Assembly: GCA_003142575.1 (NCBI GenBank)
Contig: PLMS01000030.1
Location: 1 to 47,055, forward strand
Length of the DNA: 47,055 nt
Direction of reading: 5' to 3'
From: Ignavibacteriota bacterium
Lineage (GTDB): Bacteria > Bacteroidota > Ignavibacteria > UBA10030
Both the position numbers and the translations under genes were made by a program. The notes beneath the pieces are model-generated. The model searched no databases. It worked only from the letters and a program-made list of their open reading frames with translations, and had not been told where the DNA came from. Of the stretch, positions 8,915-44,543 are shown piece after piece (position 1 is the stretch's first letter; every line of letters begins with the position of its first letter).

Positions 8915-9805
8915 TCACCGAAGGAATAAGATTCCAACTCCTGCCACCGCCACACATGCTCCAACGACAGCCTGCCACGATAGCCGTTCACGAAAGAGAA
9001 TCCACACGGTTGGCAGCATGAGGATAGGAACAATCGACATAATTGTTGCGGCGATTGCAACATTGGTCATCGAGATTGCAATAAGACTGAACGTCACGCC
9101 AAGGTAGGGACCAAGAAAAGCACCAAGCAACGTAAAAGCCAATGCTTTCGGATTATTCGAAAATACGGCTGCCGGCCGTCTCAATCGTCTTGTAAAGTAA
9201 TTCAGTGGTATGAGCACCAAGGTGGCGGCAAATGCTCTGATGAACGTAGCGATAAATCCATTCATTGGCCCTATGACGAATGCGAGCTTTGCCAGTACCA
9301 ACCCGCCCGCTTGACCCAACGCACCGAGAAAAGCGTAGAATACTCCCGCCATTGATACAGGTAAATGATGCGTCGACGATTCCTTACGTTCAAGTATAAC
9401 TAACATAATACCTGTAAGTGTGACGGCCATGCCAATAATGCCCATGGACGTGAGTGTCTCGCCGAGAAAGAGAAATGCGAGCAGCGCAGCCACTGCCGGT
9501 GCAACCGACATAATAAGCATGCCGATCCGTGCGCTGTTATATTCAAATGATTTGAAAAGGAAAGTATCGCCGAAAACAAACCCGACCAAACCGCTCACGA
9601 CTAAATATCCGGTCTGCATAATTGAAATGTCATCACGGATGTTCCCAACAACAATTGTAACAAAGAGGAGTATAACAGCAGCAAGAAGCCGCACAACATT
9701 CACATAGACTGATCCAACACGAGTAGTTGCAGCAGCGAATGCAAGCGCGCTTCCCGTCCACATGATTGCGGTAATAAGAGCGCTCAGCTCGCCGGCATAA
9801 GACAT
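8915..9805 (-). CDS. EamA/DMT-family permease (drug/metabolite transporter superfamily)
   Basis: A 296-residue, very hydrophobic protein with about ten transmembrane segments arranged as two EamA repeats (from around residue 5 and residue 150). The length and the pattern (MSYAGELSALITAIMWTGSA; LFLGETLTSMGIIGMAVTL; ILFRERLSWQAVVGACV) fit the DMT superfamily, where each half ends with a conserved Gly/Glu segment before the last helix. It is an inner-membrane exporter or importer of small metabolites; the substrate cannot be read from the sequence. It is convergent with the second propeller gene (15 bp apart) and divergent from the DUF5700 gene, so it is probably monocistronic. Confidence 0.9.
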   Translation of the reverse strand: MSYAGELSALITAIMWTGSALAFAAATTRVGSVYVNVVRLLAAVILLFVTIVVGNIRDDISIMQTGYLVVSGLVGFVFGDTFLFKSFEYNSARIGMLIMSVAPAVAALLAFLFLGETLTSMGIIGMAVTLTGIMLVILERKESSTHHLPVSMAGVFYAFLGALGQAGGLVLAKLAFVIGPMNGFIATFIRAFAATLVLIPLNYFTRRLRRPAAVFSNNPKALAFTLLGAFLGPYLGVTFSLIAISMTNVAIAATIMSIVPILMLPTVWILFRERLSWQAVVGACVAVAGVGILFLR

Positions 9806-9970: not shown

Positions 9971-11110
9971 ATGAACTTTGCATCATATACTATCGTAACC
10001 ACAATTGCAGCAATACTGCTGTTCCTTAGTCTGACGACTGAAGTTTTGCGTGCACAAACACATCCGAACTTCGAGTTCTCGTTAGGAGTCGACTACAGTG
10101 CCGCCGAGCAGACACTTGATTTTTTTGATCACCGTATCGGCGATGCAGATCGTGTTGCGAAACTTCGCGGTAATCAACTTGCAGCAGCAACAAGCGTGAT
10201 GCTGGCACGTACAGAAAAATCCCGCGATGACTTTCGTGACCAGCTTGAGCTAGCGCGGAATATTACGAGATTCGAAAGTGATGTGTATGGCTTTTTCCCT
10301 GCAAAAAATCACATACCTGAGCTTCGAAAACTTCTCAACAATATTAAACAACGACAGCTTGATCGTCGTATTGTAGCAACGATCGCCTCATTTTTTCCGG
10401 AACAAGCAAAAATTTCTACTCGATTTTCGGTGTATCTTGTTGTGATTGGAAACGAACGAGCCTCAGCGTTCGTGCGCCGTGTTGTATGGAATTTTGACAC
10501 TCCCACCTTTGTCAATGATGAGGAAGGGGAGCCTGTTATTGTTGTCAATCTTGCTCGCATGGTTGAAGGGCCGCCAAATGAACAAGCTCAGTTCATTGAA
10601 GTGCTGAGCACCACAGCACATGAATGTTTTCATGCCGCATTTTCCGTGCTGCAGAAATCCCTCCCTGATTCATTAAGACCGAGAAACATTGCCGATCAAC
10701 TTCTTGACATCGTACAGAATGAGGGTATTGCGTACTACCTTTCTCTGCAAACGCATCTTGGAGGAGAGACGCCTTCCCGAAAGTGGTTTGACGAAACATC
10801 AAAAGCAGTGGACATACTCAACCGTGTCCTTGGGGAAATGCTGTCGCCGAATCTAACACATGCACGCGCACAGGAACTTATCATGGATGCAAATCTTTCT
10901 GGTTCGTTCGAAGGCAATTACGGAGCTACTTCCGGTCTTCGGATGGCATACGAAATTGACGCGCACCTTGGCAGGCCGGCGCTTACGGCAACATTAATGA
11001 ACGGAGGCCGCTCTTTTGTTTTGACATACCAGCAAGCATGTTTGCGGGATGGTAGTCTGCCCCAACTCGATAAACGGGTTCTGCAATTCGTAGGACAAAG
11101 TAGTCGATAG
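9971..11110 (+). CDS. Exported DUF5700-like putative zinc-dependent peptidase
   Basis: A 379-residue protein with an N-terminal signal peptide (TIVTTIAAILLFLSLTTEVL, cleavage near RAQ). The key feature is an HExxH motif, TTAHECFHAAF, with His217, Glu218 and His221. A second acidic residue is at Glu251 in NEGIAYYLS, thirty residues downstream: this is a gluzincin-like zinc site. The pattern and length resemble the DUF5700 family of putative Zn-dependent proteases. It should act in the periplasm or outside; the substrate is unknown and proteolysis is inferred only from the motif. It has its own promoter-like element and is convergent with the spermidine-synthase-like gene, so no operon partner suggests a pathway. 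Confidence 0.75.
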   Translation: MNFASYTIVTTIAAILLFLSLTTEVLRAQTHPNFEFSLGVDYSAAEQTLDFFDHRIGDADRVAKLRGNQLAAATSVMLARTEKSRDDFRDQLELARNITRFESDVYGFFPAKNHIPELRKLLNNIKQRQLDRRIVATIASFFPEQAKISTRFSVYLVVIGNERASAFVRRVVWNFDTPTFVNDEEGEPVIVVNLARMVEGPPNEQAQFIEVLSTTAHECFHAAFSVLQKSLPDSLRPRNIADQLLDIVQNEGIAYYLSLQTHLGGETPSRKWFDETSKAVDILNRVLGEMLSPNLTHARAQELIMDANLSGSFEGNYGATSGLRMAYEIDAHLGRPALTATLMNGGRSFVLTYQQACLRDGSLPQLDKRVLQFVGQSSR

Positions 11111-11125
11111 AAATCGAGAAAAAAG

Positions 11126-13372
11126 TTAGAAACTTCTCTGAGTAAATATTGCTGCAATAATTGCTGGTACGAGGACGAGCGATAGGAACATGGTCATTTC
11201 TTGAATTCCCAGTACCGGCAGGAGCACAGAACACGCTATCAACGCACCGACAGAAGAGCCGAGCACATCATAAGCATAGATACTACCAAGATCTTTTGTG
11301 TGATAAGAATAAAGCCGATTGACAATCCCAAACAACATTCCGATGAGTCCGCCGCAGAACATAGTGATGATAAGTGTGAATGGCATGGAATGCACGCGCA
11401 ACAAGAGATGTAACAACTGCGGCAATAAAAGCACAACACTTACAAGCGCACTGAGAACAACAAGCAAGAGGAACTTCATCTTGTGCTTCTGAGTGATTCG
11501 TACAATAACCATCGCCCCCAATGCCAACCCAAGCATGGACACAGCCGTCATCGCACCGAGCATTTCATAAATAGATCCGAACGTTTCCTGGAAATTCAAT
11601 AAGAGGAGAAGATTGAGCGCCATGCCGATCATTCCACCACAGGCGATAATGATAGCGAGTGCGTTCCGCTCCCGTTTTTCTATTTGCCTGCGACGTACAA
11701 GGATGATGATGAACAGAATTCCCACAGCAAGAGCGCCAACAGCAAATATCCCCGTACGAGTAATGGAAGAAAATAAACTGTTGTCTCCGTGCAGAAATCG
11801 ATTCCAGAGCAATAAGTCGAAATAGTATGTTACAGGATCTGTATCGGTATTGATTCGATAATTTTGTACAGATTCCAGCATGTTTGTGATATACCTGATT
11901 CTATCAGGTGGCATCTTTTCTTCAAACATGTATTTGGAAAAGTACTCTGTTGAAATTTTGGTCATCGCATAGAGATGTGCAAGCGAATCAGGATCTTGTA
12001 TGAACGGTCTTTTACTCCGCGACCCTATCAAAATGGCGTGATCACCGGGAATGACTAGTACATTCTTGAATACCTGTTTGAATGTATAATAGATGGAAGC
12101 ATTCAGGTTTTTCATCTCATCGGTAATATATTCGGCGGAGGAAGGGACAGAAAATGCAAGAATACCATCTGATGTCAATCGGGTTGAACATTGCTGATAA
12201 AATTCCAAGGTAAAGAAGCGATTCAAGCTTGCCGTCGACGGTTCTCCAATGTTCAGGATGATAACGTCGAAGGAACGCTGCTTTCGAGATAAAAATTCAC
12301 GCCCATCTCCAGACATAATCTTAACTCGAGGATCTCGAAGCGCTTGCTGATTTTGCTTATCCAATACCGGTTCGACAAAGGGAAGAAGTGCGGGATCGAT
12401 CTCTACATATTCTATCTCTTGAACAGGATATTTCAAGATTTCTTTGAGTATGCCGTTGAATCCGCCGCCGAGAATAAGAACACGCTTTGCATCAAAACGG
12501 TGAACCAGAATGGAATGTATGAAGACTTCGGCTTCGTAGGTGTTGGGGATGTTGTACGCCGGACGCCCGTCTGTGTAAATCGTATGTTGATTTTCCAGAC
12601 GGAGAAGCGAGAGATTCTGGTATTTTGAATCAATCGATCGTACGAATGTGAGTTTATCATTGATGAGTGACCACTGGTATGCATCCATCTGGTGTTCAAG
12701 CGTACGGATTGGCTGGAGAAGAATATAATACACGACGATGATGCAAAGAAAAGCGACTGTCTTGAACTGTTTCTTGCTCTTCAAACCATGCCAAAGCGCC
12801 ATACTCCAAGTAATGAAGAGTAAAAAACACACAGTTTGCAGAGTTGAGAGTAATGATGCAAGTACACATGAAAAAAGCAATCCACCTGCGACACTTCCGA
12901 CAGATTCCAGTACATACGCCTTGTTCACACCTCGCCAGAGTTCTTCTCTTTCTGATGAGAGCATCTTTGCACCAAGCGTAAACAGCATCCCCCACAAAAG
13001 GCATCCAACACTAAGAACCGAAAATGAAAATCCAAGGAGTTCCATCATGGAGAGAAATTCACCGGTTGGAGTGTGTATAAAACCGCGGACAAATTTCACA
13101 GCAAGAATTTGCATGAACGTTACGAGTGGTGTTAGGGCAATGAGAACAATGAAGAGACTTAAAATGCTTTGTAATCTCTTGATCACCTTGTTTCCAACCG
13201 CACTCCCGATGCCGATCCAAACCAACCAGCAGGCAAAGATTATACCGATGCTTAGTTCGTTGCCGTAGAAACTGACGAGGAATTCACGAACAAGAAGAAT
13301 TTGTGAGAGGATGGAACCGAAACCGATATAAAAGAGAGATACGTGCAGTTTGAGTGTATGTGGTCGATTCAT
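11126..13372 (-). CDS. Membrane-embedded spermidine/spermine synthase-like protein, third gene of the exported AmmeMemoRadiSam operon
   Basis: A 748-residue protein with multiple N-terminal transmembrane helices (from LFYIGFGSILSQILLVREF), a central Rossmann methyltransferase-fold domain of the spermidine synthase type near residues 230-470, and a second C-terminal set of helices. The central domain has VLILGGGFNGILKE near residue 300, VEIDP for nucleoside binding, GDGREFL, and FDVIILNIGEPSTASLNRFF near residue 368. True aminopropyltransferases have a D(S/T)xDP catalytic stretch at the last site; here it reads NIGEP, so the canonical catalytic aspartate is absent. Bacterial fused MFS/spermidine-synthase proteins commonly deviate here. 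The gene starts six bases after amrS and is probably its operon partner. The actual reaction is unknown; polyamine synthesis should not be assumed. Confidence 0.75.
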   Translation of the reverse strand: MNRPHTLKLHVSLFYIGFGSILSQILLVREFLVSFYGNELSIGIIFACWLVWIGIGSAVGNKVIKRLQSILSLFIVLIALTPLVTFMQILAVKFVRGFIHTPTGEFLSMMELLGFSFSVLSVGCLLWGMLFTLGAKMLSSEREELWRGVNKAYVLESVGSVAGGLLFSCVLASLLSTLQTVCFLLFITWSMALWHGLKSKKQFKTVAFLCIIVVYYILLQPIRTLEHQMDAYQWSLINDKLTFVRSIDSKYQNLSLLRLENQHTIYTDGRPAYNIPNTYEAEVFIHSILVHRFDAKRVLILGGGFNGILKEILKYPVQEIEYVEIDPALLPFVEPVLDKQNQQALRDPRVKIMSGDGREFLSRKQRSFDVIILNIGEPSTASLNRFFTLEFYQQCSTRLTSDGILAFSVPSSAEYITDEMKNLNASIYYTFKQVFKNVLVIPGDHAILIGSRSKRPFIQDPDSLAHLYAMTKISTEYFSKYMFEEKMPPDRIRYITNMLESVQNYRINTDTDPVTYYFDLLLWNRFLHGDNSLFSSITRTGIFAVGALAVGILFIIILVRRRQIEKRERNALAIIIACGGMIGMALNLLLLLNFQETFGSIYEMLGAMTAVSMLGLALGAMVIVRITQKHKMKFLLLVVLSALVSVVLLLPQLLHLLLRVHSMPFTLIITMFCGGLIGMLFGIVNRLYSYHTKDLGSIYAYDVLGSSVGALIACSVLLPVLGIQEMTMFLSLVLVPAIIAAIFTQRSF

Positions 13373-13378
13373 GAGGTA

Positions 13379-14518
13379 TTACCACACACCGGAGATTTTT
13401 TCTCCGCAGAATTTGCACTTCCCCTTCACGATGTGATTGCTTAGGATTGTGAACACGCGCCGTTCAACGATGATTTTCTTGCACTTTGGGCAGTATGTGT
13501 TTTCTGCCCAGTGTCCGGCTGCGTTGCCAAGATAGACAAACTTGATTCCTGATTCTTTTGCGATTGTGTGCGCCTTTTCCAGCGTTTCAGTCGGAGTTGA
13601 AGGAAGCTGGCTGAGTTTATAAAGCGGCGTGAACCTGCTGAAGTGCAGCGGCGCATCCGATAGATTGTTGGAACATAACCATTCGCACATTTGTTTGATC
13701 GTATCGAAATTATCTGTCCATGTCGGAATAACAAGATTGGTAATTTCTAACCAGACTCCTTCCTCCCGGAATACTTTAAGCGCTCTCAGCACGGGCGCAA
13801 GTTTTCCAGAACTGATTTTTTTATAAACTTCGTCATCGTAAATTTTCAGGTCGATGTTTGCTGCATCAAGTACTTTGCACAATTGTCGAAGCGGCTTTTC
13901 GTTGATGTAACCGTTAGACTTCCACAGGTTATGAATTTTCCGCTCTCTTGCAAGCTTCGCTGTATCATATGCGTACTCATAAAAAGTTGTCGGCTCGGAA
14001 TACGTATAAGCAATTGATTCACATTTGGCTGCTATGCAAGCTTTGACAACCTCTTCAGGCATTAAGTCGACGTTGTCGGAGTCCTTTGGACTGATCTGCG
14101 AGATCTGCCAATTCTGACAATTGAGACAGCGGAAGTTGCATCCCGCAACAGCAATAGAGAAAGCGTGTGTTGTCGGAAGAAAATGGAAGAATGGCTTCTT
14201 TTCGATCGGATCGATATGCACTGCGCACGGATTGCCGTATGCAATGGAATATATTTTTCCATCGTTTGCAACTCGGCTGCGGCAGAATCCGGTATCGCCG
14301 TCATTCAGCAAACATCCCTGCGGACATTTTTCGCATTGTAATCCATCGGAGGTTTTTGTGTAGAAGAGTGCTTCCCTGCTAAATTTTCCTAAATCAGTGT
14401 CCGATGAACTAGAAAATATATTTGATCTGTACGCGCCAAGCGCAAGTCCTCCGGCACACAGAGTGCATTGACGAAGAAACTCGCGCTTGGAGATTCTTTG
14501 GGATTCTTTCTTTAGCAT
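13379..14518 (-). CDS. amrS: AmmeMemoRadiSam system radical SAM enzyme (AmrS) with Tat-like leader
   Basis: A 379-residue radical SAM protein. The N-terminus is an export-like leader with a Lys-Arg form of the Tat motif (SKREFLRQ) followed by CTLCAGGLALGAY. Next come a Cys-rich segment (CEKCPQGCLLNDGDTGFCRS) and the [4Fe-4S] motif CNFRCLNC (CxxxCxxC) at about residues 127-134. The C-terminus has a zinc-ribbon-like CPKCKK...CKFCGEK pair. This arrangement is that of the radical SAM enzyme genetically linked to Memo and AMMECR1 proteins. It lies seven bases after the Memo-AMMECR1 fusion gene and six bases before the membrane spermidine-synthase-like gene. The substrate is unknown. The leader suggests a folded, cofactor-loaded protein at or across the membrane, but with KR instead of RR export needs proof. 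Confidence 0.88.
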   Translation of the reverse strand: MLKKESQRISKREFLRQCTLCAGGLALGAYRSNIFSSSSDTDLGKFSREALFYTKTSDGLQCEKCPQGCLLNDGDTGFCRSRVANDGKIYSIAYGNPCAVHIDPIEKKPFFHFLPTTHAFSIAVAGCNFRCLNCQNWQISQISPKDSDNVDLMPEEVVKACIAAKCESIAYTYSEPTTFYEYAYDTAKLARERKIHNLWKSNGYINEKPLRQLCKVLDAANIDLKIYDDEVYKKISSGKLAPVLRALKVFREEGVWLEITNLVIPTWTDNFDTIKQMCEWLCSNNLSDAPLHFSRFTPLYKLSQLPSTPTETLEKAHTIAKESGIKFVYLGNAAGHWAENTYCPKCKKIIVERRVFTILSNHIVKGKCKFCGEKISGVW

Positions 14519-14525
14519 TATAGAG

Positions 14526-16037
14526 TCACTTGCCTTTCAATTCCTTTTCCCCAAACACGAGCGCCTCGTAGACATACAACTCGGCATCTTTCCAGCCGTT
14601 CCAGCCTATGCCAGCTTTATCCTGTGCGCAGTGGCCGAGGAATTCTTCCTTTGTCCATCCGGTTTCGGTAGCGACTTGCGGCAGAAATGTTCCGGAGTTC
14701 TGCCCTTTTCTGATGTAAATGCCATGCTTCCCTAATTCGATTTCATCTACGGATTGAATGCGCCGCATTGGTGTAAGCACGGAGATCTCGATTTCCAATT
14801 CCGGAATTTCATCGGTCACAACTGGTGGGAATCGATAATCCTGTGTTGACGACGCGATTGCCATGTCCTGCACTACTTTGTACAGCGGCTCGCTTGCATC
14901 GAAACGTCCGATGCAACCGCGTAAATCGCTATGCTTCTTCAGCGTGACAAAAGCGCCGCAATTTGTTTTCATTGTCGGTGATAGATCCTTCTCGTCTATC
15001 TCTCGCGTCTTGCGATTCTTCACATATTCAATGATTGTATTACGTGCAATCAGCAGCAGCTCCTTCTTATCTTTTTCGTTGAGCTTGAATTCTGTGCGCG
15101 CCTTTTTTTCCTTCAATGCAATAACAATCGCGTTGTAACCGACAACACGATTTTTTTCGCCGTACTCTGTGTCGCCGGAATTTTTGTATTGAATATGCGT
15201 GAAGGTGATGTCCGGATTATTCTCCGTCATATACATCAGCGTCAGCACACTCGTCCAGCCGCAGAGGCACGTGGCAAGATTGGAAAAACCTTTCGCTTCG
15301 CATGTTTCCATTGACTGAATCAAATTATTCGGCACATTTGTTAGAATTGCATCCGCGGTCGCTTTGTCGATATCCTTTGCATCTTTGTACGCCGGATAGT
15401 GGGAAAAGTCGGTGCTGATAATGAAGAGATTCTTTGTATTCAGATATGGCCGCAACGCTTCGGCAATACGCTGGCAGATGGATGTTGATTGAGTGCCAAG
15501 AATAATAGGAACAATTTTAAAGTTTTTCTTCATCCGGTATTGCAGAAATGGCAGCTGCACTTCCAGACTATGTTCGCTCTCATGTGCATCCGTTCGATCA
15601 GAAAAAAAGCTGTATTTTTTTATAAGCTGATCGGCAAGTTCTGTATTTACTTTTACAGTTCCTATCGGGGTGATGAAGTTGCCGTGAGAGTAGATCGACG
15701 CACCTTCAAAAGCGATATGATGGCTCGAACCGATGACGAAGATATTCTCATACTCTTTTTCCGGGTCAATCTGATTGAAGCTGGATGCCGCCACTTCTCC
15801 CGAGAACACATACCCTGCATGGGGAGAAATAATTGCGATGACGTCTTTAATTTCTTGAGACGGTACTGCCTTGGTAAAGAGTTTCTTCAACGCTGCATTG
15901 AGTTCCTCTTGCTGAGCAGGGTAGAATGATCCTGCAACGGCAGGCTGTCGGTCGATGCGCTCATTTTGTGATTTACAGTCAGTGAAGAAAAAAAGAATAC
16001 AAAAGACGAAAGGAAAGAAGATTTTTGCGGTGTTCAT
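14526..16037 (-). CDS. AmmeMemoRadiSam proteins B and A fused: lipoprotein-like Memo-AMMECR1 protein
   Basis: A 503-residue fusion. Residues 1-21 form a hydrophobic leader ending FFFTDC (Cys21), a relaxed lipobox. A Memo domain follows at about residues 30-310: VAGSFYP, ISPHAGY, GSSHH, EHSLEVQLPFLQ, STDFSHY and TCLCGW, which match the His/His/His/Cys site of Memo proteins. An AMMECR1 domain then spans roughly residues 320-500, with its hallmark LRGCIG, and RFPPV and EIEISVL. Memo and AMMECR1 are usually separate genes; fusion supports their acting together. It is the first gene of an operon with amrS and a spermidine-synthase-like membrane protein. Human Memo binds copper or iron in vitro; the bacterial function is not established. 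Aspartate before the lipobox Cys is unusual, so the lipid anchor is only likely. Confidence 0.88.
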   Translation of the reverse strand: MNTAKIFFPFVFCILFFFTDCKSQNERIDRQPAVAGSFYPAQQEELNAALKKLFTKAVPSQEIKDVIAIISPHAGYVFSGEVAASSFNQIDPEKEYENIFVIGSSHHIAFEGASIYSHGNFITPIGTVKVNTELADQLIKKYSFFSDRTDAHESEHSLEVQLPFLQYRMKKNFKIVPIILGTQSTSICQRIAEALRPYLNTKNLFIISTDFSHYPAYKDAKDIDKATADAILTNVPNNLIQSMETCEAKGFSNLATCLCGWTSVLTLMYMTENNPDITFTHIQYKNSGDTEYGEKNRVVGYNAIVIALKEKKARTEFKLNEKDKKELLLIARNTIIEYVKNRKTREIDEKDLSPTMKTNCGAFVTLKKHSDLRGCIGRFDASEPLYKVVQDMAIASSTQDYRFPPVVTDEIPELEIEISVLTPMRRIQSVDEIELGKHGIYIRKGQNSGTFLPQVATETGWTKEEFLGHCAQDKAGIGWNGWKDAELYVYEALVFGEKELKGK

Positions 16038-16181
16038 GGATGCACCAATAGTTGTTTTATTGTTAGTAACTTAGAGAGAAGAACTCAGAGTTGCAAGATA
16101 TCATTGTTAGCTCCATCCCTTGCCAATGGAGAGGATTCTTCCTACAATACTATAAAAGCTACTTATTACGAAAGAATTAGA

Positions 16182-17627
16182 GTGTCAGACGTTCTTCTTC
16201 TTCATCCTTCTGAACAAGAAAAAACATTCGGCGGCATGCCACCGCTTGGGATGGCATGGATTACTTCCTTCCTCCAATCAAAAGGAGTGCCTACAACCTT
16301 GGTTGATTTGCAGGTAAACGATATCGGTGTTGAAACGCTTCTGCAAATACACAAACCTAAAATCGTTGGTATTGGTGGAACTCCTCATACACGGTTTGAG
16401 AGTTTTAAACTTGCTCATCGTGTTAAATTATATGATCCAGCGATAAGTGTCATCTATGGAGGCTCGCATGCTTCCTTTACCGCAGATGATACACTTAGGC
16501 ACATTTCAGATATCGATATCGTTGTTCGAGGGGAAGGGGAATTAACCACGCATCGAATTGTTTCTCGAGTATTGAAGAGAAGTTTAGACCTTACTGATAT
16601 TCTCGGAATCAGCTATAGACAAAATGGCGAAATTGTTCATAATCCAGATGTAGAGCGTATCAGAGATCTTGATATCCTGCCGTTTCCATACCGCGATCCG
16701 CAAGCGATGAAAAAATACAATCTCCTTCTCGATTTTCTTAATGTGCCTGCGGTTTCGGTGATCAGCTCGCGAGGTTGTCCGGTAAATTGTTCCTTCTGTT
16801 CTGCAAGTGCAATGTTTGGCACTCAACTGACATTTCGTTCTGCTCAACATATAGTCGATGAAATAGAAATTTTACTGAAGGAAAATAACTATCAAGGTGT
16901 CAAGTTCTTCGATAGCACCCTGACACTTCATCGAAGCCATGTGGAGGCACTGTGTGCCGAGATTCATAGGCGCAAGCTCAAATTTCCATGGGAATGCGAA
17001 ATTCGTGTCAATGGAATGTCACATAATTTGTTACGCACTATGAAAGAAGCCGGTTGTTACTATGTAGATTTTGGCGTTGAATCCGCCAGCCCCTCTGTAT
17101 TGAAATCGATGCACAAAGGCATCACATTGGAACATGTCGAGAACGTCTTTCACTGGACGAAAGACCTTGGTATCTATACAAAGGTCTTTTTCACTTTTGG
17201 ACATATTGATGAGACACTTGATGATGCACGCAAGACTGTAGAATTCATGGAAAAGAATGCTCAGTATATAAGTGTGGCGGCTACAGGTATTGGCGTTCGA
17301 ATTTATCCGGGCACTGAGGTAGAGCAATTTGCGCGATCGAAAGATTTTCTAAAGAAAGATTTTTCATGGTCACTTCCTTTCGTCGATCAAAACATTGAAT
17401 CGTTGGGAAATGATCCCTTGATTCCTATATTAATCCAACCTCAATTTGGATGGCGTGAATTTCGGAAGATTGAATTTCGGCTCGCACAATTTTGGTTGAA
17501 AAATCCTCACGCTGCGCTCAGTGTACTCTGGAGTCAAATAAAGCTCGGCAGAAGCCGTGTCCTCCTCCGCTTAGTTCGCCGTTTTATTGAAGTGCATTTC
17601 CTGAATAGAAATTCCTCACAATCTTGA
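16182..17627 (+). CDS. B12-binding-domain radical SAM protein
   Basis: About 481 residues from the GTG at 16182, which begins the first strand of the cobalamin-binding Rossmann domain (VSDVLLLHPSEQEKTFGG). An in-frame TTG at 16104 would add 26 residues without family resemblance. The B12 domain (about residues 1-140) includes KIVGIGGTPHT, VIYGGSHASF and VRGEGE. The radical SAM domain has CPVNCSFCSAS (CxxxCxxC) and the downstream IRVNGM and FGVESASPSVL segments. This is the class that performs methylations or unusual C-C and C-P chemistry, or acts in lipid/hopanoid-type modification; the substrate is not visible. It is divergent from the Memo-AMMECR1 gene and about 115 bp upstream of the DUF4159 gene, with no tight operon partner. 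Confidence 0.85.
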   Translation: MSDVLLLHPSEQEKTFGGMPPLGMAWITSFLQSKGVPTTLVDLQVNDIGVETLLQIHKPKIVGIGGTPHTRFESFKLAHRVKLYDPAISVIYGGSHASFTADDTLRHISDIDIVVRGEGELTTHRIVSRVLKRSLDLTDILGISYRQNGEIVHNPDVERIRDLDILPFPYRDPQAMKKYNLLLDFLNVPAVSVISSRGCPVNCSFCSASAMFGTQLTFRSAQHIVDEIEILLKENNYQGVKFFDSTLTLHRSHVEALCAEIHRRKLKFPWECEIRVNGMSHNLLRTMKEAGCYYVDFGVESASPSVLKSMHKGITLEHVENVFHWTKDLGIYTKVFFTFGHIDETLDDARKTVEFMEKNAQYISVAATGIGVRIYPGTEVEQFARSKDFLKKDFSWSLPFVDQNIESLGNDPLIPILIQPQFGWREFRKIEFRLAQFWLKNPHAALSVLWSQIKLGRSRVLLRLVRRFIEVHFLNRNSSQS

Positions 17628-31865: not shown

Positions 31866-33545
<1,680 letters not shown>

Positions 33546-33716: not shown

Positions 33717-34943
33717 TTAGAAGATATAACCGCTTTCACCATGTTGGCTGAGATCCAGTCCTTGCACTTCTTCCTCCTGTTGAACTCGTAATCCCATCGT
33801 CCAATCAAGTACTTTGAGAATAATCCATGTGACACAGAATGCGTACGCAATTGCTACTGCAACGCTTAAGAGCTGGATAAGAAAGAGAGACGGATTACCG
33901 AAGAATGCACCATCTGCTCCGGCAGCATTGATTGCCTTCGATGCAAAAAGACCAGTTGCAAGCGCCCCAAACGTACCGCCGACGCCATGGATGCCGACCG
34001 CATCGAGTGAATCATCATAACCGAAGAAGTTCTTGATATTCACACCAAAGTAGCAAACCGCACCTGCGCCAAAACCAATTGCAAGCGCAGCAAGCGGACC
34101 GACAAAACCGGATGCCGGCGTAATTGCCACAAGACCTGCAACCGCACCTGACGCTGCACCGAGAAGCGTTGGTTTGCCGCGATGTTTCCATTCCACAATG
34201 AGCCACGAAAGTGTCGCTGTTGCCGCTGCAATATGAGTCATTAAGAATGCAGACGTTGCAAGCGCACCTGAGGCAAGAGCACTTCCTCCATTAAATCCAA
34301 ACCAACCGAACCATAACAGTGTTGCACCAAGTATTGTCATGGTCAAATTGTGAGGAGGCATATGTTCATGTCCATGACCTTTACGCTTTCCGATGATGAT
34401 TGCCGCAGCAAGAGCCGACACGCCGGAACTAATATGTACTACAAGTCCGCCTGCAAAATCCAATGCACCCAACGACCGAAGCCATCCGCCAACACCCCAC
34501 ACCCAATGTGCGAGCGGCGCGTACACAAGAGTTGACCAGAGAAGAACGAAAACCAAATATGTGCTGAATTTAAAGCGTTCCGCAAACGCGCCCGAGATCA
34601 AAGCGGGCGTGATGATCGCGAACATCATTTGAAACATCATAAATGCTTGATGGGGTATTGTTGCTGCATAAGCCGGATTGGGTTCCATTCCAACACCTTG
34701 TAAACCAAACCATTGCAAATTGCCGATAAGTCCATGAATATCCGGACCAAATGCAAGTGAATAACCAATCAGTACCCACTGCACTGTAACCAACCCTAAT
34801 GCCACAAAGCTTTGCATAATAGTACCCAGCACATTCTTTTGGCGTACCATACCGCCGTAGAATAATGCTAATCCAGGTGTCATCAGCATAACAAGTGCTG
34901 TGGACACCAACATCCATGTCGTATCGCCAGTATCTATTCTCAT
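33717..34943 (-). CDS. amtB: Ammonium transporter AmtB (copy 2)
   Basis: A 408-residue Amt channel, the same length as copy 1 and highly similar along its whole length (MLMTPGLALFYGGMVRQKNV; DFAGGLVVHISSG; GHEHMPPHNLTMTILG; DDSLDAVGIHGVGG; tail EVQGLDLSQHGESGYIF). Both pore histidines and the GlnK-contact tail are kept, so both copies look functional. The upstream P-II gene overlaps it by four bases, and a strong terminator follows. Differences are concentrated in loops and in the last two helices. The pair is a tandem operon duplication rather than an amtB duplication alone. Confidence 0.97.
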   Translation of the reverse strand: MRIDTGDTTWMLVSTALVMLMTPGLALFYGGMVRQKNVLGTIMQSFVALGLVTVQWVLIGYSLAFGPDIHGLIGNLQWFGLQGVGMEPNPAYAATIPHQAFMMFQMMFAIITPALISGAFAERFKFSTYLVFVLLWSTLVYAPLAHWVWGVGGWLRSLGALDFAGGLVVHISSGVSALAAAIIIGKRKGHGHEHMPPHNLTMTILGATLLWFGWFGFNGGSALASGALATSAFLMTHIAAATATLSWLIVEWKHRGKPTLLGAASGAVAGLVAITPASGFVGPLAALAIGFGAGAVCYFGVNIKNFFGYDDSLDAVGIHGVGGTFGALATGLFASKAINAAGADGAFFGNPSLFLIQLLSVAVAIAYAFCVTWIILKVLDWTMGLRVQQEEEVQGLDLSQHGESGYIF

Positions 34944-41385: not shown

Positions 41386-42288
41386 TCACCAAATCCAGAG
41401 ATTGAAATAACTTGTGCAAGGATCCTTTAGTTTTCCGCTTTCTATTCCGGAATTTGTATGATGAATGATCTTCAAGTTATAAGTATGAAGCATTTGACAA
41501 GATTCCATTACTGTATATAATGCTATATGCGAATCAACAAATGCCTTCTTATATCTGCTAATATCAAAATGATTGAGAATGTCGATGGTTATTGAATCTT
41601 CACGTTGAGCTATTTCACTGGTTTTATAATGAGAAAAGTCGAGACTGGCAATGGGCAAAACATCTGGGCTTTTCAATGAAATAATGAATTTTGCCAGAGC
41701 CAGTCCTTCTTTTATGGTCGCGTCGGATCGGATAATGATTGTTACTATTCGTGCTTTAGGAAAGTAGTATTTGATAAATGGGACAAGGGCTCCTATCGAG
41801 TGTTCATTATAAAAAGCATTCTCATCATTATCGGCAATACGAGAATCTATGAGTTCACGAACGATTTCGATATCTGGTTGTAATATGCCGAAGGGGGTCT
41901 TCCACGGAAGCTTTGATATTGTTATTTGATATTGGCTGCGGGAGAAATGATCCGGCCCGATAAGAACTATTGTTTTCGGATGTGCAACCTTAGATAATCG
42001 AAGAAAATATTCAGCGATAAGATCCTTTATGAGGAGATGATGCGATACGATACCCCAACGAATTGGTAATACCGTATCAATCGCGATACTTTTATCCCGA
42101 ATTTTTTCGATACTTGAGAGATAGTAATCAGGCCTATCGCTCGATATTGAGTATTGATATTTTAGGTAGTGTTTTTTCGAATTTTCGGTTTTAGGCTTTG
42201 ACTCTATACAAACAGAAAATAATCCGAGTATCCCAATGACAAGTATTAATGATCTCAAATAATGCAATCGCACAAAAAAGTTTCTCAA
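41386..42288 (-). CDS. Memo-family protein (AmmeMemoRadiSam system protein B-like), possibly a lipoprotein
   Basis: A 300-residue protein with an N-terminal hydrophobic leader ending LFSVC (Cys27), a loose lipobox. The Memo fold is shown by WGIVSHHLL, IVLIGPDHFSRSQYQI, NEHSIGALVPFIKYYFPKAR and ASLDFSHYK, equivalent to the ISPHAGY, GSSHH, EHSLEVQLPFLQ and STDFSHY blocks of the larger Memo-AMMECR1 protein elsewhere in the window. The first block is changed (SHHL instead of SPHAGY). A cysteine in MESCQMLH may take the role of the site cysteine. There is no AMMECR1 domain. It overlaps the upstream DUF3160 gene by four bases, so the two are coupled. Function is unknown; two Memo-like exported proteins in one window is notable. 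Confidence 0.8.
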   Translation of the reverse strand: MRNFFVRLHYLRSLILVIGILGLFSVCIESKPKTENSKKHYLKYQYSISSDRPDYYLSSIEKIRDKSIAIDTVLPIRWGIVSHHLLIKDLIAEYFLRLSKVAHPKTIVLIGPDHFSRSQYQITISKLPWKTPFGILQPDIEIVRELIDSRIADNDENAFYNEHSIGALVPFIKYYFPKARIVTIIIRSDATIKEGLALAKFIISLKSPDVLPIASLDFSHYKTSEIAQREDSITIDILNHFDISRYKKAFVDSHIALYTVMESCQMLHTYNLKIIHHTNSGIESGKLKDPCTSYFNLWIW

Positions 42289-44543
42289 TTTATGCGCATT
42301 TGTTTAACCCATTCCGGTTCTTTTGATTTTATTCTTGGATCAATCGTTGGATAGATATTGGTTTTCCATTCGTCGTCATTAAGTCTCTTCGAAAGCGGTT
42401 GAATAAACTCATAATAGGTGTAAACATATCCGATGCAGATTCGCGTTCCACCAGAATTATCTTTTACAGCAACATAAATGCGTTGAGGAATACCGATCCC
42501 CTCTTCAAGAATCATCTGGAATAGATTATCAGTATGCGCATCTGCAACAAGTGCCATTTGCTTGAATTTATCATCGATAATATCGCCAGAACCTTCTGGT
42601 ATCACTATGGAGCTAATATTGCCGGTAAAATTAAGGAGATAATTATATTCTTCTTTTGTTATTTCTGCATTCATCAATTCTTTCCGGACAATGTCACGCA
42701 ATTTGACGACGTGGTCTAAGTATAAACTGAACTTTTTTAAGTATTCATCCGACAGCAGCATATTATCAGAAAATGTTTTCGCTGTTGTTTGAATGAGCTC
42801 AACAAAACGATTAAAGAATTCAAGATCGGGTTCAACATAACTTTTAGGTTGAGGTGGAAGCGGCGGAGCCTCTTCGCCACCTTCTCCCATCTCAGCTGCC
42901 GATTGTTTAGAGTAAAGGATCGTATCGTGTTTAAGCTCTGCCCAGGAAGCAAGCGCAGTCAACAATCTTTTCTTTGACCAGACCTTTCCTCGGAATATAA
43001 TGGGATAGTTATCTCCTTTATCAGCAAGAAGGGCTTTTAATGTGTTAAGCCAGCTCAAGTAAACACTTTGCTTCCAGAATTTTTCTGGATATGCAGAAAA
43101 CTCTGATTTCAAAGCGTGATAATTACTGGAATAATTGGGAATAGCGTCAAATTGTTTCACCATATCGTTTGCAGTGGAAGAACCGAGGATAGCCATAACA
43201 TCAAGGCCTGTAGGAATATTTCTCGGAAGTTTGTCAGAACCAACCCGAGGAGATGTAAGGTCGTTAAATATTTTTGCATCAGGAGTGAACCTTTGACCCA
43301 TAAATCGATATGCCTTTATAGTATCGAGTTTGGGTGCTGGGAGTGATTTTAGTTCGGACATAAATTGATCAAATTTATTTTCATCAGAATAAATATAAGA
43401 ACTGCTCCCATATACCTTGTTGGCGACTCGCTGGTAATCTTCCCAGGTTAAATCGTCAGAGTTGCCAACCAAATAATTGATGGCTCTTGATATACGTTTC
43501 CAAGAATTACCATTATGCGTGTCATCTAGTAGTTCCGTTTGAAGGAGTGCCATCATAGTATAGTCCTTCGAGTCTGCTGGGAAGGAACATTGGCCAAACC
43601 ACATCATCGCTTGAAAATATCGGCTCAGTCGTTTTGTTTTTGTATAATGGCCACGTGGTTTAAATTGCGAATAGTCTTTCTTTTCTTGAAACAACGGCGA
43701 TGAAGCGAAGCCGTCAGCCTTCTGTATTAACTGTAATTCGGCGGACACAATATCATTTACTTCAGGTAACACAACAAATGCTGTATCAAGCAAACTTCCG
43801 GCGACGCTAAAGAACGCAACATTGCCAAGTGCTGCTTTTCGAATTCCAGGCGGAGTTGAATTTCGAATTTGTTTCTTGCTTTCCGCACTAAGGTTTTTTG
43901 TCAGTTGAAGTATTTGAAAATAAAATTTCCTTTCTTCGGCTTGTTGAAGTGCACGGTCAAATACTACGTGATAAACGTGGAGTAAATAGTCTGAAGTTAT
44001 AAAGAGGGGAACCGTGCTATAATCCTGACCATAATTAAACACACTATGGCTGGAATATTGGTCAATCATATCATCATACTGTATGTTTCTAAGAGGTGTA
44101 ATTTCTTCAAGATAGAATCCCTGGTTAGCGAGAAGTTCTTTTTGTTTCTTATTGAATTGTTGACGTGATTTCGGTTGAAAGTAATCCCATTTAAGAGTAT
44201 CAGGTAATTCAGTTATCCCCGGCCGTTCATTATCAGACCAAATCTTTGTCGATGATGGTAGTGATTGAATGGGATCCATTGTCCATACGGCAGGTTCATA
44301 TTCAAGAGGTTCGGGAGATTCTCCATCGCGAGGCATATATTCTTCATTGGACTGATATCCAGCATTCGCAGAGGGAGCACTTTTAACTTGGAGTGTGAGA
44401 CCGTCGGGATTACTATTGTTTGATCCCAATTCGGTTCCAATTATTTTCTCTGATTGTGATAGTTTATGAATGACTAAAAATCCAACAACCACTAGAATTA
44501 TAATTGAACAAGCAACAATTGCCACTAGCACTTTTTTTGACAT
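42285..44543 (-). CDS. DUF3160 protein with N-terminal membrane anchor
   Basis: A 752-residue protein with a good ribosome site (GAGGG four bases before the ATG). One N-terminal hydrophobic helix (VLVAIVACSIIILVVVGFLV, residues 6-25) serves as anchor or uncleaved signal. The rest is mostly alpha-helical and extracytoplasmic. Blocks typical of DUF3160 include VPLFITSDYLLHVYHVVFDR, FMGQRFTPDAKIFNDLTSPR, PTGLDVMAILGS, YHALKSEFSAYPEKFWKQSV, SWAELKHDTILYSKQS and a C-terminal ALVADAHTDN and RICIGYVYTYYEF. The domain has no known function. The gene overlaps the Memo-like gene by four bases, suggesting a shared role on the outside of the inner membrane. Confidence 0.85.
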   Translation of the reverse strand: MSKKVLVAIVACSIIILVVVGFLVIHKLSQSEKIIGTELGSNNSNPDGLTLQVKSAPSANAGYQSNEEYMPRDGESPEPLEYEPAVWTMDPIQSLPSSTKIWSDNERPGITELPDTLKWDYFQPKSRQQFNKKQKELLANQGFYLEEITPLRNIQYDDMIDQYSSHSVFNYGQDYSTVPLFITSDYLLHVYHVVFDRALQQAEERKFYFQILQLTKNLSAESKKQIRNSTPPGIRKAALGNVAFFSVAGSLLDTAFVVLPEVNDIVSAELQLIQKADGFASSPLFQEKKDYSQFKPRGHYTKTKRLSRYFQAMMWFGQCSFPADSKDYTMMALLQTELLDDTHNGNSWKRISRAINYLVGNSDDLTWEDYQRVANKVYGSSSYIYSDENKFDQFMSELKSLPAPKLDTIKAYRFMGQRFTPDAKIFNDLTSPRVGSDKLPRNIPTGLDVMAILGSSTANDMVKQFDAIPNYSSNYHALKSEFSAYPEKFWKQSVYLSWLNTLKALLADKGDNYPIIFRGKVWSKKRLLTALASWAELKHDTILYSKQSAAEMGEGGEEAPPLPPQPKSYVEPDLEFFNRFVELIQTTAKTFSDNMLLSDEYLKKFSLYLDHVVKLRDIVRKELMNAEITKEEYNYLLNFTGNISSIVIPEGSGDIIDDKFKQMALVADAHTDNLFQMILEEGIGIPQRIYVAVKDNSGGTRICIGYVYTYYEFIQPLSKRLNDDEWKTNIYPTIDPRIKSKEPEWVKQMRIN

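Follow-up and report, generated by a model that had tools for sequence, protein, structure and literature searches.

Because both S-adenosylmethionine (SAM) and low-potential electrons are located in the cytoplasm, radical SAM enzymes are regarded as cytoplasmic proteins. How, then, is an operon to be read in which the radical SAM enzyme appears to carry an export leader? The question is raised by a 47,055-nucleotide stretch of DNA from an Ignavibacteriota bacterium (contig PLMS01000030.1 of assembly GCA_003142575.1, here called the window), in which three minus-strand genes form a tight operon with gaps of 7 and 6 bp. They encode a Memo-AMMECR1 fusion, the radical SAM enzyme of the AmmeMemoRadiSam system (AmrS), and a spermidine-synthase-like membrane protein for which we use the working label SpdM (Table 1). 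A first interpretation made from the letters alone (the sequence-only reading) had described this layout, and the open reading frames of the window and profile scores for each family bear it out. On comparative grounds, we consider that the operon probably encodes an AmmeMemoRadiSam system of an extracytoplasmic kind, in which SpdM may supply SAM or clear a product.

AmrS scored 332.5 bits against TIGR04337 (cut-off 220) in the profile search, and its CxxxCxxC cysteines (C127, C131, and C134) are invariant in 88 aligned homologues. The AlphaFold2 (AF2) model (predicted local distance difference test score, pLDDT, 92.4) shows a separate leader helix (residues 11-31), a low-confidence linker (residues 31-40), and a core whose closest fold in a structure search is the pyruvate formate-lyase (PFL)-activating enzyme (3cb8/3c8f, target TM-score 0.79-0.82). 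The leader sequence is ISKREFLRQCTLCAGGLALGA, in which SKREFL is a KR variant of the twin-arginine translocation (Tat) motif. The pattern S/T-K/R-R-x-F-L/I is conserved in the leaders of AmrS homologues, including RR forms such as SRREFL, SRRTF, and TRREFI, while the cytoplasmic AmrS paralogue is without a Tat-like motif. The Tat profile TIGR01409 gave 12.9-16.3 bits in four AmrS homologues (cut-off 16.7) and did not report the window AmrS. Because the predicted leaders are conserved in more than 80 loci, their origin by chance is excluded.

The fusion partner carries its own leader, MNTAKIFFPFVFCILFFFTDCKSQ, and Memo proteins in nearly all operon homologues bear hydrophobic leaders. The sequence-only reading had placed leaders on two of the three genes, and both kinds recur in homologues rather than being absent from them. 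Its description of the fusion as lipoprotein-like stands in part: the hydrophobic leader is there, but the lipobox FTDC is not canonical, and its Cys, kept in close relatives, has a suitably placed counterpart after the hydrophobic run in only 29 of 61 scanned homologues. The Memo part scored 253 bits against TIGR04336 (cut-off 26) and the AMMECR1 part 166.8 bits against TIGR04335 (cut-off 99). Memo residues H73 (64/64), H106 (63/63), C259 (67/67), and H213 (67/67) are invariant wherever aligned; the first, second, and third of them align with H49, H81, and C244 of human MEMO1, which are its iron/copper ligands (PMC11081632). Since the AmrS cluster cysteines and the Memo metal ligands are kept, nothing in these sequences suggests inactive copies.

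In 61 related genomes the AmrS scores fall into two groups, 315-360 bits and 255-290 bits. All 20 inspected loci of the first group have a Tat-like leader at the start and SpdM on the same fetched stretch, usually adjacent, and in most of them the Memo-AMMECR1 fusion is visible as well. The 20 inspected loci of the second group have a leaderless start, with neither the fusion nor SpdM within approximately 4 kb. Both types co-occur in many of these genomes; the window genome holds the first type only, together with a separate leaderless pair of Memo and AMMECR1 genes on contig C62. A SpdM profile search found the full-length protein in 23 of the 61 genomes, namely the 22 in which the first-type AmrS is complete, together with G017, where the AmrS gene is cut at a contig end beside SpdM; it is absent from the remaining 38. 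The same picture was seen in a phylum sample of 99 genomes, four of which contain SpdM, all with this AmrS type (the gene again cut in G017). Most other AmrS matches in that sample start after the leader region, and SpdM is found in none of those genomes. Eight of these loci were inspected: the SpdM-bearing one has MNAQNLSRREF, and the other seven start leaderless.

We then have the wider picture from a scan of 84,980 species genomes, which yielded 80 loci in Bacteroidota, Omnitrophota, Thermodesulfobacteriota, Ignavibacteriota, Myxococcota, and other phyla. Among these, the cultured Mangrovibacterium marinum DSM 28823 carries the operon (L094), and Seramator thermalis (L127) has a leaderless system. 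On the AmrS core tree SpdM is present in the genome for 82 of 85 leadered AmrS and for one of nine leaderless ones (82 with leader and SpdM, 3 with leader only, 1 with SpdM only, 8 with neither; Fisher p 1.3e-8, not corrected for descent), which agrees with the earlier expectation that the third gene is conserved beside AmrS where leaders are present. Where SpdM is not next to AmrS it is found elsewhere in the genome for 11 of 13 Tat-type and 6 of 7 Sec-type systems (one a partial match), but for none of nine leaderless AmrS without a neighbouring SpdM; nor was a spermidine-synthase-like substitute detected in the leaderless systems at 1e-10. Three Bacteroidales loci (L099, L108, and L115) have a leaderless AmrS, lack SpdM, and share neighbouring genes with L077, L081, and L083. 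These data support the view that SpdM goes with the AmrS leader and not with AmrS chemistry as such. Since leaderless AmrS of the same type do without it, SpdM more likely serves the location of the enzyme than the common chemistry.

Ten AmrS proteins have a general secretory (Sec)- or anchor-type leader in place of the Tat-type one. TatC is present in 24 of 25 genomes with a Tat-type leader, in 2 of 10 with a Sec-type leader, and in 9 of 9 with leaderless AmrS (p 1.6e-5, Tat versus Sec), although some of these are incomplete metagenome-assembled genomes, so that the absence of TatC is uncertain in an individual genome. Within Omnitrophota alone the counts are 1 of 5 for the Sec type and 4 of 4 for the Tat type, and the window genome has TatC. 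The leaders of L074, L075, L085, L089, L127, L132, L145, and L150 were assigned by eye, those that entered the TatC comparison before it was made. The switch supports the AmrS leader acting as an export signal; most lineages would use Tat for this, and those without Tat a Sec-type leader. A DsbD_2-type gene lies in or beside the operon in five of the eight TatC-less loci, and none was found near the other loci. Because DsbD-type proteins pass reducing power outwards, these neighbours would make sense if electrons or reduced thiols are required beyond the membrane. In L145 the AmrS leader sits in an upstream frame; at L145:6211-7484 the AmrS frame appears to be frameshifted from an upstream membrane-anchor leader, by an assembly error or a real break.

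What could SpdM contribute to an exported enzyme? Hydropathy gives 7 + 7 helices flanking a soluble domain. An hhalign comparison (probability 98.5, E 2.9e-15) shows the first membrane half to be homologous to the second, and as residues 8-202 pair with 571-748, one extra helix remains on each side of the soluble domain. In a fold search with the AF2 model (pLDDT 86.3, predicted TM-score 0.88, low confidence around residues 530-560) the soluble domain matched spermidine synthases (1uir, target TM-score 0.75, Z 29.4), and the membrane part matched the major facilitator superfamily (MFS) protein SV2A (9pc9, Z 25.7 over 349 residues); Pfam MFS_1 gave 16 bits at residues 572-740, below its cut-off. 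In the model, the spermidine-synthase-fold domain of SpdM is flanked by membrane parts that together make up a 12-helix MFS fold and two further helices; transport is a prediction from this fold. The domain is predicted to face the periplasm because the Lys/Arg bias favours the same sides in both halves (50/50 sequences, positive-inside rule). This topology and the Tat/Sec switch strengthen the membrane or periplasmic placement that had been proposed from the letters, and we regard an extracytoplasmic location of AmrS as very probable on comparative evidence.

The soluble domain is recognised by Spermine_synth PF01564 (88.2 bits, cut-off 22.9), and its adenosyl-binding positions E324 and D356 are invariant (31/31). 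The first Asp of the DSTDP motif is catalytic in aminopropyltransferases; this position is N374 in the window SpdM, and of 31 homologues 18 have Asn there and 5 have Asp. SpdM falls short of the aminopropyltransferase cut-offs (167 of 472 bits for NF002956, 105.2 of 260 for NF002010, 85.4 of 249.55 for TIGR00417) and of these models exceeds the cut-off of the broad NF037959 alone (fused MFS/spermidine synthase; 51.9 bits, cut-off 40), which matches 26 of 31 SpdM homologues at E 0.001. On the missed cut-offs and the missing Asp we reject a canonical aminopropyltransferase role. The sequence-only reading had allowed the third protein either to use or to supply an adenosyl-type substrate; use in aminopropyl transfer is thereby disfavoured, and supply is plausible and fits better. 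The membrane-associated modification pathway that it also proposed is a conjecture.

The pairing of an MFS fold with an adenosyl-binding domain suggests that SpdM delivers SAM or removes 5'-deoxyadenosine. In the scheme that we favour, AmrS would be exported via Tat, or via a Sec-type leader where Tat is missing, and the Memo-AMMECR1 fusion would be exported by its own leader with its metal site kept. SpdM would present its spermidine-synthase-fold domain to the periplasm from an MFS-fold membrane part; all three placements have comparative support. AmrS may then cleave SAM outside the cytoplasm and carry out a radical step on or with Memo-AMMECR1. The outward domain of SpdM may bind SAM or a breakdown product and move it across the membrane, and such transfer could supply the co-substrate or clear 5'-deoxyadenosine. 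SAM supply or removal as the role of SpdM is a tentative assignment. The general form of the idea, radical SAM chemistry outside the cytoplasmic membrane for which a dedicated membrane protein delivers SAM or clears its products from the periplasm, we hold with similar caution.

Several observations weigh against this scheme. The window leader is KR and not RR, and no tested member reaches the TIGR01409 cut-off. It is difficult to see how Sec would export an iron-sulphur enzyme. Leadered AmrS without SpdM occur at L079, L091, and L114; the L123 AmrS is apparently leaderless, yet SpdM is present; and Memo keeps its hydrophobic leader beside leaderless AmrS in L099, L108, L110, and L115. On the AmrS tree, leader loss amounts to about three changes, two of them on starred branches; a sign test would need more, and therefore ancestry accounts for part of the leader-SpdM association. 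In the open-access literature SAM transport by any MFS-spermidine-synthase fusion was not found.

Among the other explanations, an active transferase survives best, although we consider it unlikely: the SpdM domain would move an aminopropyl or alkyl group from a SAM-type donor onto an AmrS/Memo product, a lipid, or an envelope component in an extracytoplasmic pathway. The spermidine-synthase fold (Z up to 29), the retained adenosyl-binding positions, and the gene neighbourhood in common with AmrS speak for it, but the expected Asp is lost in most SpdM proteins, the scores lie far under all polyamine aminopropyltransferase cut-offs (167 versus 472; 85 versus 249.55), and leaderless systems do without SpdM or a detectable substitute. 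Somewhat more doubtful is a one-shot enzyme, exported pre-loaded with its cluster and SAM and acting once per molecule, with SpdM as anchor, chaperone, or product exporter. Tat is established to export folded, cofactor-loaded proteins, and AmrS resembles the glycyl-radical activases, which act on a protein partner; yet the Sec-type leaders, in lineages mostly without TatC, would export AmrS unfolded and empty, and the adenosyl-binding domain of SpdM would be unexplained. It is improbable that the leaders are mere tethers on the cytoplasmic side, with AmrS remaining cytoplasmic and the SpdM domain inverted in topology. Such tethers would suit a KR motif weaker than RR, short and modestly hydrophobic leaders, and the normal need of radical SAM enzymes for cytoplasmic SAM and reductant, but not the change from Tat-type to Sec-type leaders largely where TatC is absent, the charge bias of both SpdM halves, or the independent export leader on Memo in most operons. 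An ordinary conserved operon in which AmrS export and SpdM are functionally unlinked and co-occur by shared ancestry is very improbable, since in spite of the few independent leader changes SpdM is kept when moved away from AmrS (17/20 leadered versus 0/9 leaderless) and is missing in each leaderless group, even in the same gene setting (L099, L108, and L115 versus L077, L081, and L083).

The proposed extracytoplasmic variant is close to known systems and differs from each of them. It resembles the AmmeMemoRadiSam system in passing the curated cut-offs of TIGR04335, TIGR04336, and TIGR04337 and in keeping the radical SAM motif and the Memo ligands, but both of its proteins carry export leaders, and SpdM looks like an obligate partner; the second AmmeMemoRadiSam set of the relatives has no leaders and no SpdM, and its Memo and AMMECR1 genes are separate. 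AmrS shares its core fold with the PFL-activating enzyme and matches TIGR02493 at 1.8e-16, but at 60.2 bits against a cut-off of 231.75, and it adds an N-terminal Cys motif, C-terminal CxxC pairs, and the export leader. SpdM combines membrane helices with a spermidine-synthase domain, as do NF037959 proteins and the PRK03612-type membrane aminopropyltransferases (NF002956); it differs in its score far below the NF002956 cut-off and in a domain that is inserted between the repeat halves, is predicted to be periplasmic, and has mostly lost the expected Asp. The Memo part retains the iron/copper ligands of human MEMO1 (PMC11081632), but is predicted to be exported, is fused to AMMECR1, and is encoded in a bacterial operon. 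In the open-access literature we found no paper on an exported radical SAM enzyme, none on a fused MFS-spermidine synthase, and neither a paper on AmmeMemoRadiSam function nor an established reaction, although a 2019 paper on Memo-Ammecr1 systems, cited in PMC7159879, may hold prior notice. The protein families are known, and the exported form with SpdM is new as far as these searches reach.

If the proposal is true, several phyla share a conserved exported radical SAM enzyme that would require both SAM and electrons on the far side of the membrane, and SpdM is a concrete candidate for meeting the SAM need. As there are close relatives that have neither leader nor SpdM, the role of SpdM can be separated from the reaction of the trio of Memo, AMMECR1, and AmrS. 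Two members of that trio have a human counterpart.

Table 1. Coordinates of the operon features in the window, and of DsbD_2-type genes at other loci.
Feature	Position	Strand	Basis
Memo-AMMECR1 fusion, 503 aa, predicted N-terminal export leader	14526..16037	-	TIGR04336, TIGR04335, PF01875, PF01871
Hydrophobic leader of Memo-AMMECR1, residues 1-21, possible lipoprotein Cys21	15975..16037	-	sequence and homologues
Memo domain stretch with metal ligands H73, H106, C259 and nearby H213	15261..15821	-	invariance, MEMO1 alignment
AmrS, radical SAM enzyme, 379 aa	13379..14518	-	TIGR04337, AF2 model, fold match
Tat-like leader of AmrS, residues 1-31; motif S10-K-R-E-F-L at 14491-14474	14426..14518	-	homologues and model
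AmrS radical SAM CxxxCxxC cluster motif (C127, C131, C134)	14117..14140	-	invariance in homologues
SpdM, 14-helix MFS-like membrane protein with inserted spermidine-synthase-fold domain, 748 aa	11126..13372	-	profiles, hydropathy, model
SpdM transmembrane helices (TM) 1-7 (MFS-like first half and one extra helix)	12701..13372	-	hydropathy, hhalign
SpdM spermidine-synthase-fold domain, residues 240-528, predicted periplasmic	11789..12655	-	fold match, charge bias
SpdM TM8-14 (one extra helix and MFS-like second half)	11129..11752	-	hydropathy, hhalign, weak MFS_1 match
DsbD_2-type membrane genes	L114:4226-4837, L129:4177-4815, L136:2714-3364, L140:2890-3558, L150:4108-4776		TatC not found in these genomes

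Neighbour clustering around this AmrS type gave no conserved fourth operon gene, as no cluster recurs across lineages except DsbD_2 (five TatC-less operons); the remaining recurrent clusters are local synteny. Some EamA-like carriers transport SAM, and an EamA-type carrier gene lies at 8915-9805 in the window; it was rejected as a SAM carrier for the system, with no such recurrent neighbour in the clustering. It stands beside a gene (9971-11110, plus strand) for a putative zinc peptidase of the DUF5700 family, whose N-terminus is hydrophobic; this gene is convergent with the SpdM gene. On the other side, the gene for a B12-binding radical SAM protein of HpnJ/BchE-like type (16104-17627, plus strand) points away from the operon, and 66 bp separate its first start codon from the Memo start. 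At 41386-42288 (minus strand) the window encodes a third Memo-like protein, which is divergent in sequence and has a hydrophobic leader of its own (PF01875 95 bits); its gene overlaps the end of a DUF3160 gene (42285-44543), and several related genomes hold similar divergent Memo-like matches. Two adjacent ammonium transporter genes (31866-33092 and 33717-34943, minus strand) are 74% identical over 408 aa and represent a local duplication.

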